Shown piece by piece: positions 29,716-36,454 of a stretch of 42,004 nucleotides of DNA. Made by a program: the position numbers and the translations under genes. This DNA is from an uncultured Eubacteriales bacterium. Lineage in GTDB: Bacteria > Bacillota_I > Bacilli_A > RF39 > UBA660. Below the pieces are notes generated by a model. It had not been told where the DNA came from. It saw nothing but the letters and a program-made list of their open reading frames with translations, and did no database searches. Within the stretch, counting starts at the first letter, position 1. The number at the start of each line of letters is the position of its first letter. The stretch is taken from assembly GCA_900313815.1 (NCBI GenBank), contig OMST01000063.1, positions 1-42,004 on the forward strand, written 5' to 3'.

Positions 29716-29724
29716 TGATTTTTT
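29701..29724. terminator. bidirectional intrinsic terminator
   Basis: AAAAAATCAC/GTGATTTTTT stem (10 bp), loop ATTA; it includes the symporter stop and borders the convergent gene's stop. Confidence 0.85.
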
Positions 29725-30821
29725 TATTTATTAGGTTGTTTTAAATATCTATTTTCATTATTGATTTTTATCCATTGCTCCCTATTATTATAATTACCAG
29801 ATAACGGTAAACTATATAATAAATCTATTTCATTTTTACTAATATCATTTCTAAAATATGACATTAAATTGTTTTGAGTAACTAATATATTCTTATCATC
29901 AGACTTTGGTAAATATTTATTTTCAACGATCTCTAAGAATTTATTATTATCATAATAACTTAACATTATTAAATCTTCTTCCATATTAATTCCATATTTG
30001 TGATAATAATAGTTGTTAATACTGTTTACTATTCTTTTTTCTAATTTAATTATTGCTTGCTTATTTTCGTAATTAAGATTATCATATAATATTTTCATTT
30101 TATCTAAATCATATAATAATTTTAATGCATCATTCTTATTACCATATATTTTAGATAATTCAATGGTTATTGGATCAAGTGAATTATAACCTTGATACTT
30201 TTTAAATGGCTCACTTCCAATTATTTCAATTAACATCTTAGTATAAAAATAATAGTTATCATATATAGAATTTTCATATATACCATTATATTCTTCATTA
30301 AAAATAGTATTTACTGTTTCTGTTAAAAATAAATTATTGTTTTTATATCTATTTTTTTGCATAGTATGAAAAAGCTCATGAGTCCATGTAATAGTATTTA
30401 GATCACTAATACTACTAACACCATAAAAATATAATGTGTTTTTTTCACTATTATATTTTCCATTAATAGAATTCTTTTTATCAGTATATATTATTTTTAA
30501 ATCTCTAAACATATTAGATATATATTCAATATCTAAATATTTTTTATTTTCAGCAAACACCCATAAGTAATTCTCTATTAAACGCTTTTCATCTTGAGTT
30601 AGATTTTTATTATTATTTATAGACTCACTCAATATTATTTTTACATATTCATCACTATACTCACTAGATTTTTTAATATTCTCTAATGTCTCATTATATA
30701 ATTCTAGATACTTTAACTCATTTAAATCGGTTTTTAATAACGCTATGCACACTAAAAAAGATAATAATACCACTATTATATTTTTAATAATTCTACGTTT
30801 TCTACTATCTTCTTTATCCAT
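29724..30821 (-). CDS. membrane-anchored HExxH zinc metallopeptidase-like protein
   Basis: 365 residues. One membrane segment at about 12-31 after a basic start (RKRRIIKN). The rest is an extracytoplasmic helical domain with TWTHELFHTMQ (HExxH, about 146-156) and a downstream LTETVNTIFNEE that could supply the third ligand, as in gluzincins. I do not recognise the family. AAAGGAT lies upstream of the ATG, which is only 21 bases after the ABC-F fusion stop with no terminator between, so it is part of that inducible operon. A role in envelope response to antibiotic is an inference. Confidence 0.7.
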   Translation of the reverse strand: MDKEDSRKRRIIKNIIVVLLSFLVCIALLKTDLNELKYLELYNETLENIKKSSEYSDEYVKIILSESINNNKNLTQDEKRLIENYLWVFAENKKYLDIEYISNMFRDLKIIYTDKKNSINGKYNSEKNTLYFYGVSSISDLNTITWTHELFHTMQKNRYKNNNLFLTETVNTIFNEEYNGIYENSIYDNYYFYTKMLIEIIGSEPFKKYQGYNSLDPITIELSKIYGNKNDALKLLYDLDKMKILYDNLNYENKQAIIKLEKRIVNSINNYYYHKYGINMEEDLIMLSYYDNNKFLEIVENKYLPKSDDKNILVTQNNLMSYFRNDISKNEIDLLYSLPLSGNYNNREQWIKINNENRYLKQPNK

Positions 30822-30842: not shown

Positions 30843-33206
30843 CTATTTTAACATATTTATGAGCACTCTATAATATTGACTTTTTGATTCATCCTTTTCT
30901 ATACCTATTTTATCATAAAATACATTAACATAATCTACTCCATAATACTTTTCTATAGACATTTCACACGAAACTAAATCAAAATATATATCACATAATC
31001 CGCAATGTCCTATATCAATAAATCCACTAAATTCTCCCTTAAATGCATAAATATTATTAAGTGTTAATTTACCATGTGTGAATCCAATTATTTGTTTTGG
31101 CTTATTTCCTTTTAAATACTTAATAATACCTTCCCTAGTATAATATTTTTTTAATAAGTCATCATTTATTTTTCCGTTGTTATTTTCTATTGATTTAATC
31201 TTAGTATCGATAGTTTCATCCAGTATGCAATCACTATAATCGATATTATAAAGGTTATTAAATGCACTAACTATTATATCTATTCCTTCGTTAGGATTAG
31301 AACAATAATATTCACTAGATAATGCTTCTCCTTTAACCTCTTTCATTAATATATATGACATATCATTATATTTTTCATAAAATACTTTTTCAGGTATTAA
31401 CAATTTATCTTTAAGATATTCTAATCTTATTGATTCATTGCTTAAATGATTAGCTGTTTTCAGATAAAATATTTTACTTTTCTTTCTAATTTTATATACT
31501 TTTATAAGAGAAGAACTAATTAATTCTATTTTAGTAGCATCTTTTAAAAATTCAGTTAATCTTTTACTACCTTTAATATTTACTTCTTCTTTTATTGCTT
31601 TCTTTTCTTCAGTTGTAATTTTAGGCTCTTTTATTGAATCATAATTGCCCATATATGTCACTAATTTTTTATTTTCAATTCTAACTATTTTAGTAGCCAA
31701 TTTATTAATAAAATACCTATCATGAGAAATAAATAATATAGTACCATCAAAATCAAGTAACGACGATTCTAAAATTTCTCTTGTATCTATATCAATATGG
31801 TTTGTAGGTTCATCTAATATTAAGAAATTAGCATGGCATAATATTAATTCTAATAATTTAATTCTAACTTTTTCACCACCACTTAAAGACTTTAATTTTT
31901 TAAATATAGATTCGGAATCAAAATAAAACCTATATAATTTACTTCTAAGTTCACTTTCACTACCCACAAATATACTTCTCATATAATCGTATATAGTTAA
32001 ATTATCATTTTCAAATCTAATTTCCTGTGGAATATATCCCATTTGCACATTTGCACCTATTTTAATATTATTGTGTGTATTATTTAATATGTTTTTAATC
32101 AAAGTTGTCTTTCCAGAGCCGTTTTTTCCCATCAAGCATACTCTTTCTTTATGGTTTACATCCATACTTGACGCAATTAAAAGTTCTTTATTACCTATAC
32201 TTAAATTTAAATTATCTATTGTTAATACGTGATTAGCACTTCTATCATTAAAAGCTAAATTAATCTTTAAATCTATTTTTTCTTTAGGCTCCTCTACTTT
32301 AACCATTTTATCCAATCTCTTTTGCATTGATTCAGCTCTCCTAAAGAAAATAGGATTGTCACTTTTAGTTCCCCAGGCTTTTAATCTCTCTATTGCTTCT
32401 TCCATTGCTTTTATTTTCTTTTGTTGATTTTTATATGCCTGAAATTGAAGCATTAATCTTTTTTCAGATTCTTCTATATAATAGCTGTAATTTCCACAAT
32501 AAATATCAGCATTACCATTTTCTAAACATATTATTTTATTAATAACATGATCCAAAAAATATCTATCGTGACTCACTATTACTATAGTACCTTTATATGT
32601 TTTTAAATATTCCTCAAACCATTCTAAGGTATCAATATCCAAATGGTTAGTAGGTTCATCTAATAATAATATATCAGGATTAGATAATACAAGTGACGCT
32701 AGATTTACAATTGTCTTTTCACCACCACTTAAATTATTATAATAATTATTTAATATACTATCGTCTAATTTAAAGCCATTTCTAATTTTTTCTATTCTTC
32801 CATTTAATTGATATCCACCTTTAATTCTAAATTCTTCTTGTAATTTACCAAGTTCATTTAGTTCTTTTGAACTAGAATTCATATTATTAATAAAATTTTT
32901 AATCTTGTTTTCTAAGTCAATTAACTCCCTTAAACCTCTTAAATATACTTCTCTAGCAGTAACATTATCATTTTCTTTTTCTGGTATTTGAGTTAAATAT
33001 CCTATAGATACACCATTTCTAATGCTAACTGTTCCATTATCAGGTGTTTCTTTTCCCATAATTAATCTAAGTGTAGTTGTCTTACCACACCCGTTACTTC
33101 CAATTAGAGCTACTCTTTCACCAGTTTTAATATCAAAAGTTAAATCATTTAACACTTGATTATAACCATAGTTTTTATTTATTTTACTTAAACTTATTTC
33201 TATCAT
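30843..33206 (-). CDS. ABC-F ATPase fused to APH(3')-like kinase domain
   Basis: 787 residues in one uninterrupted frame. Two ABC cassettes: Walker A GSNGCGKT (36-43) and GKNGSGKT (360-367); signatures LSGGE (159, 441); Walker B with catalytic Glu184 and Glu466. A long charged linker (about 250-310) matches the P-site-tRNA-interaction motif of ABC-F ribosome factors; no membrane segments. Residues ~555-787 match the aminoglycoside 3'-phosphotransferase fold: KVYKI, YLK (ATP Lys583), LMKEVKGE, HGKLTLNN (711-718) and SGFIDIGHCG (Asp731). The catalytic Asp of HGD is Lys713, so phosphotransfer is doubtful. It is likely a ribosome-protection or translation factor with a kinase-derived binding module. 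GGAG precedes the ATG; control is by the leader at 33207-33335. Confidence 0.92.
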   Translation of the reverse strand: MIEISLSKINKNYGYNQVLNDLTFDIKTGERVALIGSNGCGKTTTLRLIMGKETPDNGTVSIRNGVSIGYLTQIPEKENDNVTAREVYLRGLRELIDLENKIKNFINNMNSSSKELNELGKLQEEFRIKGGYQLNGRIEKIRNGFKLDDSILNNYYNNLSGGEKTIVNLASLVLSNPDILLLDEPTNHLDIDTLEWFEEYLKTYKGTIVIVSHDRYFLDHVINKIICLENGNADIYCGNYSYYIEESEKRLMLQFQAYKNQQKKIKAMEEAIERLKAWGTKSDNPIFFRRAESMQKRLDKMVKVEEPKEKIDLKINLAFNDRSANHVLTIDNLNLSIGNKELLIASSMDVNHKERVCLMGKNGSGKTTLIKNILNNTHNNIKIGANVQMGYIPQEIRFENDNLTIYDYMRSIFVGSESELRSKLYRFYFDSESIFKKLKSLSGGEKVRIKLLELILCHANFLILDEPTNHIDIDTREILESSLLDFDGTILFISHDRYFINKLATKIVRIENKKLVTYMGNYDSIKEPKITTEEKKAIKEEVNIKGSKRLTEFLKDATKIELISSSLIKVYKIRKKSKIFYLKTANHLSNESIRLEYLKDKLLIPEKVFYEKYNDMSYILMKEVKGEALSSEYYCSNPNEGIDIIVSAFNNLYNIDYSDCILDETIDTKIKSIENNNGKINDDLLKKYYTREGIIKYLKGNKPKQIIGFTHGKLTLNNIYAFKGEFSGFIDIGHCGLCDIYFDLVSCEMSIEKYYGVDYVNVFYDKIGIEKDESKSQYYRVLINMLK

Positions 33207-33388: not shown

Positions 33389-33417
33389 TTGACTTTTAGT
33401 CAAGGATGTATTATTAT
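33389..33417 (+). promoter_or_regulatory. TetR gene promoter with overlapping palindromic operator
   Basis: TTGACT (33389-33394), 17-base spacer, TATTAT (33412-33417). The -35 is the left half of a perfect palindrome TTGACT-TTT-AGTCAA (33389-33403), the expected place for an autoregulatory TetR site. The ABC-F -35 is about 20 bases away on the other side. Confidence 0.75.
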
Positions 33418-33442
33418 ATTAACTCGTCAAGAAGGAGATATT

Positions 33443-34024
33443 ATGAAAATCGCTGAGAACAAGCAAATAAAAAGAGAAAATTTATTAACTTCAGCATACA
33501 ATTTATTTATTAGAAAGGGAGTTCACGCAACATCTATTGATGAAATAACTGATAATGCAGGTGTTGCGAAAGGAACATTTTATCTATATTTTGAAGATAA
33601 ATGGGATATATTTGAAAAAACTATAATTGAAAGATCTCATTTATTATTTGAAGAAGCTTTAATATATGTTAATAATCAAAACATTAAAGGCTTTAAAGAT
33701 AGAATAATTAATATGATAGACTATATTATAGAGTCATTTAAAGATAATAACGAGTTACTTAAATTCATAGGTAAGAATTTGTCTTTAGGCATGTATAATA
33801 AAGTAATTATTGATGAATATGAACAATATAGTGATATTAAAGAAACTCTTGAAAAAGAATTTAAAGAATATAATAAAAAAGAGAAAAATGCTGAAATTAA
33901 GCTATTTATGATAATAGAACTTACTAGTAGTACTATTTATAACTCAATATTGAATGATTTTCCATTATCAATAAATGATTATAAAAAAATATTATTTGAA
34001 CAAATTAAAAACATAATAAAATAA
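33443..34024 (+). CDS. TetR/AcrR-family transcriptional regulator
   Basis: 193 residues. N-terminal helix-turn-helix: RENLLTSAYNLFIRKGVHATSIDEITDNAGVAKGTFYLYFEDK is the TetR signature; residues ~60-193 form an all-helical ligand/dimerisation domain without recognisable specificity. The start at 33443 follows AAGGAG by six bases; the longer frame begins inside the operator. It is divergent from the ABC-F fusion operon, which it may co-regulate. Confidence 0.93.
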   Translation: MKIAENKQIKRENLLTSAYNLFIRKGVHATSIDEITDNAGVAKGTFYLYFEDKWDIFEKTIIERSHLLFEEALIYVNNQNIKGFKDRIINMIDYIIESFKDNNELLKFIGKNLSLGMYNKVIIDEYEQYSDIKETLEKEFKEYNKKEKNAEIKLFMIIELTSSTIYNSILNDFPLSINDYKKILFEQIKNIIK

Positions 34025-34041: not shown

Positions 34042-34830
34042 TTATTTTAAACTATTATATATTATCATATATTCTTCATTAGATAAATTTTCCATTAATT
34101 TATTTAATGTTTCTTTAGGAATATTATAACTATCAACCACCGCTTTACTTTCTTTTTTAGTTAGCTTTTGATCATGAAGTTTAGCAAATTCTATTAATGC
34201 TTCCATTAGATTATTTTTTAATTTTTTATCTCTATGAAAGAACATTTCTCTAAATATAAACCTTTTAAAACTTGTTTTTAAGCTTTCTCTTTTAATGGGT
34301 ACTAATCTAATCATGGAAGACATAACTCTAGGCATTGGATCAAATGCTTCCCTAGAAATATCCATTATTTTAGTTACTTCAAAGAATGAGTTTGTAAGTA
34401 AAGCTAATTTATTTAATTCTTTATTGATAACAGAATCAGCATACTTTTTACCCACTATTAATAAGCATTCTTTAAATGAACATCTTAATAATTTTTCTAT
34501 GAAAGGTTCTGTTATCGAATAAGGTAATGCAGATATTATTTTATCGCATTCAGGAATATAAACATTTAGTGCATTTCCATATATAATATCAACATTATCA
34601 TATTTATCCTTTAAAACGTTCATAAAATGTTCAAGATTTCTATCTATTTCAATACATGTTAAATGTCCACATCTTCTTGCTAAAGTATCACTTATTTGAC
34701 CTTTTCCAGGACCAATTTCAACAACGCTTTCTTCCACACTTAAATGAGCTTCATCAACAAAAGCATTTATAATACTTTTATTAACTAAAAAATGTTGATC
34801 CAAATAATTTGTATCGTTTTCAAATTCCAT
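34042..34830 (-). CDS. KsgA/Erm-family rRNA adenine methyltransferase with altered motif IV
   Basis: 262 residues. The N-terminal LDQHFLVN (Q-H/N-F motif X), VEIGPGKGQISDTLA (SAM motif I, about 37-51), CIEIDRNL (motif II), and SALPYSITEPFIEKLL (motif IV, about 100-115) define the KsgA/Dim1/Erm family, which dimethylates an adenine N6 in 16S or 23S rRNA. Motif IV normally reads N-L/I-P-Y/F; here the Asn is Ala101. The C-terminus (FREMFFHRDKKLKNNLMEALI) resembles the archaeal KsgA/Dim1 helical domain. AAGGGTG precedes the ATG. It could be housekeeping KsgA or a resistance-type paralogue; activity is uncertain. Confidence 0.85.
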   Translation of the reverse strand: MEFENDTNYLDQHFLVNKSIINAFVDEAHLSVEESVVEIGPGKGQISDTLARRCGHLTCIEIDRNLEHFMNVLKDKYDNVDIIYGNALNVYIPECDKIISALPYSITEPFIEKLLRCSFKECLLIVGKKYADSVINKELNKLALLTNSFFEVTKIMDISREAFDPMPRVMSSMIRLVPIKRESLKTSFKRFIFREMFFHRDKKLKNNLMEALIEFAKLHDQKLTKKESKAVVDSYNIPKETLNKLMENLSNEEYMIIYNSLK

Positions 34831-34935: not shown

Positions 34936-35589
34936 CTATTTAAAAATATTAAATGGGTATCTGCAAGGTAAATCTAATTCAAAATGCATTTTTTCTTTAG
35001 TTGTAGGATGAATAAATTCAATACTTTTAGCGAATAATGCTACTTGTTCACCAGATTTAGCATTCTTATTATATTTATTATCCCCATATAATGGGTATCC
35101 AAAATTAGATAATTGTACTCTAATTTGATGAGATCTTCCAGTTTCTAAATTGATTTTTATTAATGATAAGTTATCTTTATAATCAAGTTTTTCAAATGAT
35201 AAAATTGCTTCTTTTCCATTTTTGTCTACTTTAACTATATTATTCTTATTATCCTTTAATAAATAATCTTTTAAAGTTTTATTCTGACATATGTTGCCCA
35301 CTACAACTGCAATATATGTTTTTTTAAATAATTTATTTCTGACTTGTTCGCTTAATCTAGATGCTGCTTTGCTAGTTCGTGCAAATACCATTATTCCGCC
35401 TACCGGTCTATCAAGTCTATGAACTAGCCCTAAATATACATTACCAGGTTTATTATATTTTTCTTTTATATATTCTTTTAATATATTAAGTAAATCCTTA
35501 TCCTTACTACTGTCTTCCTGTACTGGAACGTTAATTGGCTTTTCAACAACTAATAAATGGTTATCCTCATATATAATATTAATATTCAT
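34936..35589 (-). CDS. RluA-family RNA pseudouridine synthase
   Basis: 217 residues. IIYEDNHLLVVEKPINVPVQ opens the family, GLVHRLDRPVGGIMVFART (about 58-76) carries the catalytic Asp of HRLDR, and TGRSHQIRVQLSNFGYPLYGDNKY is the RNA-binding motif. It isomerises uridines in rRNA or tRNA; the site is unknown. No S4 domain precedes the catalytic domain, as in short RluA-type enzymes. The start at 35589 follows GGGAG and overlaps the upstream methyltransferase by 11 bases, so the two are coupled. Confidence 0.92.
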   Translation of the reverse strand: MNINIIYEDNHLLVVEKPINVPVQEDSSKDKDLLNILKEYIKEKYNKPGNVYLGLVHRLDRPVGGIMVFARTSKAASRLSEQVRNKLFKKTYIAVVVGNICQNKTLKDYLLKDNKNNIVKVDKNGKEAILSFEKLDYKDNLSLIKINLETGRSHQIRVQLSNFGYPLYGDNKYNKNAKSGEQVALFAKSIEFIHPTTKEKMHFELDLPCRYPFNIFK

Positions 35590-36454
35590 TTTTCTCCCAT
35601 CTTCCATATACACCACAAGGTAAGATTAGATGACTATTAGTTATTTTTAGTCCTATTTCATCAGTAGATATTTTACCATCTGATAGTCTATTACCACAAC
35701 TGGTTACTAAAATATTTTTTAATATTTCAGGTGTTATTCCCTTAGTATATGAGCTAATTAATAAGAATAATGGATCATCACTTAAAATATCAATACAAGA
35801 GTCTATTAATTTATTTAAACTATCTTCAAATCTCCATAATTCTTTTGATGGACCTCTTCCATATGTAGGAGGATCCATTATTATAGCATCATATCTATTT
35901 CCTCTTTTTTTCTCTCTTTCAACAAATTTTAAACAATCATCACATATATATCTTATTTTATTGTTTTCTAATTTTGATAGTTTAGAATTCTCTTTAGCCC
36001 AATCATTCATTCCTTTAGATGCATCAACATGTACTACTTCGATAGCCCCTGCATATGAAGCTGCCATAGTAGCACCTCCAGTATATGCAAATAAATTAAG
36101 AACTTTAATAGGTCTATTTGCTTTTTTAATTTTATCTATTATGAAATCCCAGTTAGCAGCTTGTTCAGGAAAAAGCCCAGTATGTTTAAATCCAGTAGGA
36201 CTAACTTTAAATGTTAAATCTTTATAATTTACAGTCCAAAACTCAGGAAATTTTTTAATATTTTCCCAATATCCACCACCTTTATCACTTCTGTGATATA
36301 TAGCGTGATAATTTTTCCATATATTATCTTCTTTATGTGTCCATAATGCCCATGGATCTGGTCTTCTTAGTATTACATCTTTCCATCTTTCAAGTTTTTC
36401 ACCATTTCCAGCATCTATGCATTCATAGTCTTTCCATTCATTACTTACTAACAT
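35579..36454 (-). CDS. class I SAM-dependent methyltransferase (RlmI/RlmK-like)
   Basis: 291 residues. LNLFAYTGGATMAASYAGA (about 131-149) is SAM motif I, VHVDASKGMNDWAKEN motif II and IIMDPPTYGRGP motif IV (DPP-T/S), the arrangement of 23S rRNA cytosine methyltransferases of the RlmI/RlmK group. The N-terminal ~100 residues (DVILRRPDPWALW, GYWENIKKFPEFW) are a family-specific substrate module rather than a PUA domain. Target RNA is unknown. It starts the unit with the pseudouridine synthase from promoter 36473-36481. Confidence 0.87.
   Translation of the reverse strand: MLVSNEWKDYECIDAGNGEKLERWKDVILRRPDPWALWTHKEDNIWKNYHAIYHRSDKGGGYWENIKKFPEFWTVNYKDLTFKVSPTGFKHTGLFPEQAANWDFIIDKIKKANRPIKVLNLFAYTGGATMAASYAGAIEVVHVDASKGMNDWAKENSKLSKLENNKIRYICDDCLKFVEREKKRGNRYDAIIMDPPTYGRGPSKELWRFEDSLNKLIDSCIDILSDDPLFLLISSYTKGITPEILKNILVTSCGNRLSDGKISTDEIGLKITNSHLILPCGVYGRWEKNEY

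Follow-up and report, generated by a model that had tools for sequence, protein, structure and literature searches.

The window, a stretch of 42,004 nucleotides from an uncultured Eubacteriales bacterium, contains on its reverse strand the gene of a putative methyltransferase of the KsgA/Dim1/Erm superfamily, called here the paralogue of the canonical KsgA that the same genome encodes. The gene, the parts of it discussed below and its neighbors are the following.

30843 to 33206, reverse strand: ABC-F protein with an APH(3')-like C-terminal part (NF000355, 431.6 bits, above the cut-off of 380).
33389 to 34024, forward strand: TetR-family regulator (PF00440).
34042 to 34830, reverse strand: KsgA/Dim1-superfamily paralogue, 262 aa, with an ATG start, called from the Pfam match, motif IV and the AlphaFold2 model.
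34318 to 34344, reverse strand: motif VIII, Phe163 to Ser171, with the base-holding aromatic Phe163 kept.
34432 to 34452, reverse strand: residues 127-133, with Gly127 for Gln and Ser133 for the basic RNA-contact residue (Arg134 of ErmC').
34513 to 34533, reverse strand: motif IV, SALPYSI (residues 100-106), with Ala101 replacing Asn and with Leu102, Pro103 and Tyr104 kept.
34573 to 34575, reverse strand: Asn86 of motif III, for Asp (Asp84 of ErmC', Asp117 of Pyrococcus horikoshii DIMT1).
34789 to 34797, reverse strand: motif X, Gln12-His13-Phe14, with His replacing Asn (Asn11 of ErmC').
34936 to 35616, reverse strand: RluA-type pseudouridine synthase (PF00849), upstream of the paralogue and in the same direction.
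35579 to 36454, reverse strand: RlmL-related class I methyltransferase (PF10672).

A sequence-only reading of this DNA had described the open reading frame as KsgA/Erm-like, and it does match the Pfam family RrnaAD (PF00398) with 121.3 bits, above the gathering cut-off of 24. Against TIGR00755 (KsgA/RsmA) it scores 157.6 bits, below the curated cut-off of 171; three other members of its clade score 141.9, 155.1, and 146.3 bits, and the cell's own KsgA 264.3 bits. Against the broad Erm model NF000499 it scores 121.4 bits, below the curated cut-off of 212, with ErmT as a control at 289.2 bits. The protein thus falls short of the curated cut-offs of both models. The AlphaFold2 model, built on an alignment of 11 rows, has a mean pLDDT of 90.3 and a predicted C-terminal helical domain, and in structural comparison it comes closest to human and archaeal Dim1, KsgA, and ErmC' (Z of 22-25, with an rmsd of ~7-8 over the whole protein). 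Among PDB sequences, the 11-row profile best matches the Dim1 of M. jannaschii (6e-45) and the wild-type DIMT1 of P. horikoshii (1.3e-42).

A second, canonical ksgA, whose presence the sequence-only reading had proposed to check, is found in the same genome (G000:C15). It has a RrnaAD match of 209.6 bits, reads GNLPYYI at motif IV, and adjoins open reading frames that by eye resemble mfd, spoVT, and tatD. Hence, the paralogue is not the KsgA of this cell. A canonical KsgA above 180 bits is present in 15 of the 17 carrier genomes (13/15 plus 2/2). It was not found in the carriers G349 and G392, both drafts of 84-85% completeness, and two congeners of these, G887 and G888, have both genes. G058, of the window's own genus, has the canonical KsgA only. 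When 117 genomes from the family were searched with the single protein, the five matches at 2.8e-53 or better defined the carriers, followed by a gap until 5.7e-28, where the canonical KsgA start. A profile search of the order at E 1e-45 matched 7 of 385 genomes, and in draws of 395 genomes from the class and 392 from the phylum, which included some members of the family, the own genome alone was matched; this limit was chosen to exclude canonical KsgA, so that remoter members may be missed. A scan of genome contigs added six loci, and the genus of G349 another two carriers. As far as these searches reach, the paralogue is lineage-restricted and is kept in a small clade, mostly alongside KsgA. 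Carriage by phages or plasmids was considered and rejected: matches on plasmids (1664 records, the best 25 being 24 Erm and one rsmA) and on phages (31 records, the best 20 examined) all have less than 60% identity, and a scan of viral contigs with two peptide patterns found no relative.

The paralogues form one side of a branch in both phylogenetic trees (support of 99/97 with 52 rows and of 100/99 with 42 rows), apart from the canonical KsgA and from four Erm and two Erm-like rows, so that they do not fall with Erm in either tree (ErmE being absent from both). Genus-mates group together in the 42-row tree (three of g99 and four of g139), which suits a mainly vertical descent with what would be many losses. 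In the 52-row tree, the sister of the clade is a "third" KsgA-like type (L044:6214-7359 and L045:5658-6860, both on the reverse strand), found in G115 and G082, each of which has three KsgA-type genes above the Pfam cut-off. This type resembles the clade in its DQHF and in the ITEP that follows motif IV. It differs in that motif IV keeps the Asn (ANLPYTITEP), that the residue at the position of Arg134 is basic, that its proteins, of 381 and 400 aa, carry a long extension at the C terminus, and that its branch is long. The clade and this type were joined to two archaeal rows at 97/86. In the tree without the long-branched type, with two more clade rows and other canonical rows, the support fell to 94/62, which makes an archaeal origin of the clade no more than one possibility. 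Two members of the family, G084 and G005, contain Erm(42)-like genes (L046:6285-7208, forward strand; L047:6369-7238, reverse strand) that group with Erm(42) in both trees, the one of L047 reaching 199.9 bits where the Erm cut-off is 212.

The absence of Asn from motif IV, on which the sequence-only reading was built, is confirmed in the window and extends to the orthologues. None of the 17 clade rows has the NLPY typical of KsgA/RsmA: the Asn is replaced by Ser in 9 and by Ala in 8, with at least two changes between these states within the clade (42-row tree), and the Tyr is present in all 17. The Asn is found in 41/41 canonical KsgA, as well as in 4/4 Erm, 2/2 Erm-like, 2/2 archaeal, and 2/2 "third" rows and in the KsgA of Bacillus subtilis. 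With 0/17 in the clade versus 41/41 in canonical KsgA, the absence is due neither to sequencing error nor to chance.

The role given to this Asn, that of contacting the target adenine, does not agree with the description of ErmC', where Asn101 instead makes a hydrogen bond to the carboxyl group of SAM (PMC6787224). ErmE of Saccharopolyspora erythraea, which dimethylates A2058, naturally has an Ala at this position, like the paralogue, with 131AIPY134 where ErmC' has 101NIPY104 (PMC6787224; Table 4 of PMC8844858), and this Ala is discussed as costing one hydrogen bond to the SAM carboxyl (PMC6787224). Enzymes that dimethylate are described as having the motif (A/S/N)(L/I/V)P(Y/F), which includes the ALPY of the paralogue, and a small hydrophobic second residue is described as permitting the second methylation (PMC3814359). 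ErmB Y103A serves as a catalytically inactive mutant (PMC5118997), and human DIMT1 is inactive when NLPY is changed to AAAA, which removes the Pro and the Tyr as well (PMC8463865). Structures exist for the N132A (PDB 8x4l) and D117A mutants of P. horikoshii DIMT1, residues presumably mutated because they were thought important. The motif of 8x4l was considered as a natural archaeal Ala and ruled out, since the wild type has Asn; it carries the same Asn to Ala change as the paralogue, but as a single engineered one. Literature searches on ErmC N101, on the Arg contacts of KsgA, and on the P. horikoshii mutant structures returned nothing usable. In a 2003 J Mol Biol study, Asn101 of ErmC' was reportedly not essential and Tyr104 essential. 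Because ErmE has AIPY and the published motif allows Ala or Ser, what can be concluded from the Asn alone is weak. Its absence is tolerated in a known active enzyme, ErmE; the observation is real, but its emphasis on the Asn is misplaced. With ErmE, the case named in the sequence-only reading as overturning it, a neutral Ala in orthologues that dimethylate A1518/A1519, is nearly reached, yet ErmE is a homologue that acts on the 23S. The question of this single residue is largely answered in print by ErmE.

The other motifs had been regarded as intact, which is not the case: motifs X, III, and VI (the names X and VI being assigned here), the residues after motif IV, and the RNA-contact residue are all altered. 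In motif X, the position of the Asn has His in 17/17 clade rows, Asn in 41/41 canonical KsgA, and His or Cys in the two archaeal rows. In motif III, the SAM-contacting Asp is kept in 5 of the 17 clade rows; the other 12 have Asn (11) or Ser (1), and Asn is also found there in 2/41 canonical KsgA. The column of Arg134 of ErmC' is never basic in the clade, where it has N, S, G, or D in 17/17 rows. It is R in 41/41 canonical KsgA, 2/2 archaeal, 1/1 B. subtilis, and 2/2 Erm-like rows, R or K in 4/4 Erm, and K in 2/2 "third" rows. In the literature, this residue is paired with Lys164 of ErmE (Table 4 of PMC8844858), and the ErmC' arginine that matches this lysine is called essential for resistance (PMC6787224). 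We called a difference near-fixed when a residue was present in 16 or 17 of the 17 clade rows and at least 37 of the 41 canonical KsgA had another one. These differences (given as canonical to clade) are Gly11Asp, Asn13His, Tyr105Ser, Thr108Glu, Ile110Phe, and Gln127Gly, in addition to the Ala/Ser of 101, and all lie within motifs X, IV, and VI or adjacent to them. Residue 213 was also flagged, against gaps only, and 19 positions are near-fixed and identical in the two sets. His13 and Phe110 are also present in P. horikoshii DIMT1. In the C-terminal basic stretch, 26/26 canonical rows have Lys-Arg-Lys, and 0/15 clade rows have Arg or Lys in the middle, a residue likewise absent from the Dim1 of M. 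jannaschii; the clade's own lysines lie at 203 (14/15 rows) and 205 (15/15). The median pI is 6.34 in the clade versus 8.92 in canonical KsgA, which is weak evidence because the corresponding stretch of B. subtilis KsgA is acidic too (5.21).

What is conserved is the core. The SAM-binding residues Glu38, Gly40, Gly42, Glu61, and Asp63 are kept in 15/15 clade rows, and the aromatics that hold the base, Tyr104 and Phe163, in 17/17. In yeast mtTFB, a member of the superfamily that does not methylate, the two corresponding aromatics are gone and the SAM residues remain (PMC2614427), a pattern that the paralogues do not share. The gene evolves under purifying selection: pairwise dN/dS is ~0.11-0.30 in the 15 pairs of a six-member subclade, values that are partly saturated because dS spans 0.22-1.43.

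The neighbors of the paralogue agree with the sequence-only reading: the ABC-F protein that carries an APH-like part at its C terminus and, as RNA-modification enzymes, an RluA-type pseudouridine synthase and an RlmL-related methyltransferase. The RluA-type protein scores 180.7 bits against TIGR00005, below the cut-off of 192.7, and its gene adjoins the paralogue in L034-L038. The order RlmL-like, RluA-type, paralogue is common to the window and these five relatives, with an extra open reading frame of 122-125 aa between the first two genes in L036-L038. The RlmL-like gene co-occurs with the paralogue in 15/15 carriers and is absent from the one non-carrier compared (0/1). Its presence is nonspecific because 338 of the 385 genomes of the order have a homologue, and the link was dropped. 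The ABC-F-APH protein scores 128.4 bits against APH_3p, below the cut-off of 205. In a search of 16 genomes at E 1e-120, its gene was detected in six, namely the window's and those of the five nearest relatives, and not in nine other carriers (G887 and G888 being outside this search). It follows the paralogue in L035, L036, and L038; in the genome of L034 the two share a contig at a distance of ~7.6 kb, and in that of L037 they are on different contigs. A resistance module formed with the paralogue was rejected, as the ABC-F-APH gene is found only in the subclade of the window. The loci of this fusion include L095-L100. In the window's copy, the APH-like catalytic-loop motif departs from the form kept by five relatives, which makes the kinase activity of this part doubtful. 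The TetR-family gene lies between the paralogue and the ABC-F-APH gene also in L035, and not in L036 or L038. In the remoter carriers L039-L043, the neighbors differ, and the paralogue has therefore no constant partner. Two of these loci (L039:3533-5017 and L040:10268-11731) have a gene that by eye resembles a (p)ppGpp synthase/hydrolase and whose end the paralogue overlaps by 17 bases. In the window, a 365-aa open reading frame at 29724-30821 (reverse strand) matches nothing in Pfam or NCBIfam at E 0.001 and contains an HELFH stretch that by eye resembles a zinc-protease motif.

Three other explanations must be weighed. The paralogue could be a redundant second KsgA acting on A1518/A1519 of the 16S, perhaps under other conditions, its active-site changes being neutral. 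The profile scores do favor KsgA over Erm (157.6 versus 121.4 bits), the C-terminal helical domain is predicted, a 16S 3' end (L093) shows by eye an h45 loop with adjacent adenines, and divergent orthologues, including the Dim1 of M. jannaschii, complement KsgA in Escherichia coli (PMC2614427). The two drafts with no canonical KsgA found, G349 and G392, would also fit. Yet the congeners of these drafts are among the 15/17 carriers with a canonical KsgA, the score is below the curated KsgA cut-off, and the changes are common to the whole clade, including the loss in 17/17 rows of an Arg kept in 41/41 canonical proteins; we regard this redundancy as unlikely. Alternatively, the paralogue could be an Erm-like methylase of A2058 in the 23S that confers macrolide-type resistance together with the neighboring ABC-F-APH protein. 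This is the least probable of the explanations. The two genes are adjacent in the window and in three other loci (and the ABC-F-APH gene occurs in 6/16 genomes), and the same Ala is found in ErmE. The 23S genes of four carriers (G041, G099, G170, and G392) have the A2058 stretch, located by the E. coli numbering. But the paralogue is apart from Erm in both trees and its 121.4 bits are below 212, the ABC-F-APH gene was not detected in nine other carriers at E 1e-120, and the basic residue essential for resistance in ErmC' (PMC6787224) is absent in 17/17. ErmE has Lys164 there (PMC8844858).

The sequence-only reading had left the choice between a noncanonical methylase and an RNA-binding protein that has lost its methylase activity. 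A scaffold or regulator comparable to the mitochondrial mtTFB would have a precedent in the same superfamily (PMC2614427), and the paralogue has replacements at SAM contacts in motifs III and IV; moreover, mtTFB kept its SAM-binding residues after losing activity (PMC2614427), a point against taking the paralogue as catalytic. However, Tyr104 and Phe163 are invariant, the SAM-binding Gly, Glu, and Asp are kept in 15/15 rows, and binding of RNA is hard to reconcile with the loss of a conserved RNA-contact residue. A noncatalytic function thus seems improbable, about as much as redundancy with KsgA, and the noncanonical methylase is retained, for reasons other than the Asn.

The paralogue is best read as an undescribed member of the superfamily; in 12 of 46 papers on KsgA paralogs, gene duplication, and related subjects, the titles and opening lines of abstracts contained no description of it. 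It probably represents a second, lineage-restricted methyltransferase of the KsgA/Dim1/Erm superfamily, which accompanies KsgA and likely has a target of its own. It shares with KsgA/RsmA and with archaeal and eukaryotic Dim1 the fold, the length, the SAM motif, the pair of aromatics, and the C-terminal helical domain, and with P. horikoshii DIMT1 the His of motif X. It differs from KsgA and Dim1 by the Ala/Ser of motif IV, the mostly Asn motif III, the near-fixed Ser105, Glu108, and Gly127, and the loss of the basic RNA contact, and from KsgA by coexisting with a canonical copy in most carriers. Such a protein would most likely still bind SAM and would methylate an adenine at N6, with the base held by Tyr104 and Phe163, and Leu102 is the type of residue said to allow a second methylation. 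The target, or else the contacts by which it is reached, would probably differ from those of KsgA and Erm, since the whole clade has replacements in the base pocket and at the conserved RNA-contact residue. The change of Asn to Ala or Ser would be one part of this remodeling and need not abolish catalysis. A more specific version, which we advance tentatively, is that the catalytic core was kept and the rRNA contacts shared by KsgA and Erm were given up, with a substrate other than the two known rRNA sites, so that the enzyme would be an addition, specific to this lineage, to translation or to the modification of nucleic acids.

Judged from the sequences, the main interest of the paralogue is this wider remodeling of the base pocket and of the RNA contacts around an apparently preserved methyl-transfer core. 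The case also offers a natural series (Asn, Ser, Ala, with the Tyr kept) for the role of the motif IV Asn in adenine dimethylation. If the substrate does differ, the KsgA fold would have been turned to a new target inside bacteria, beside that of Erm.
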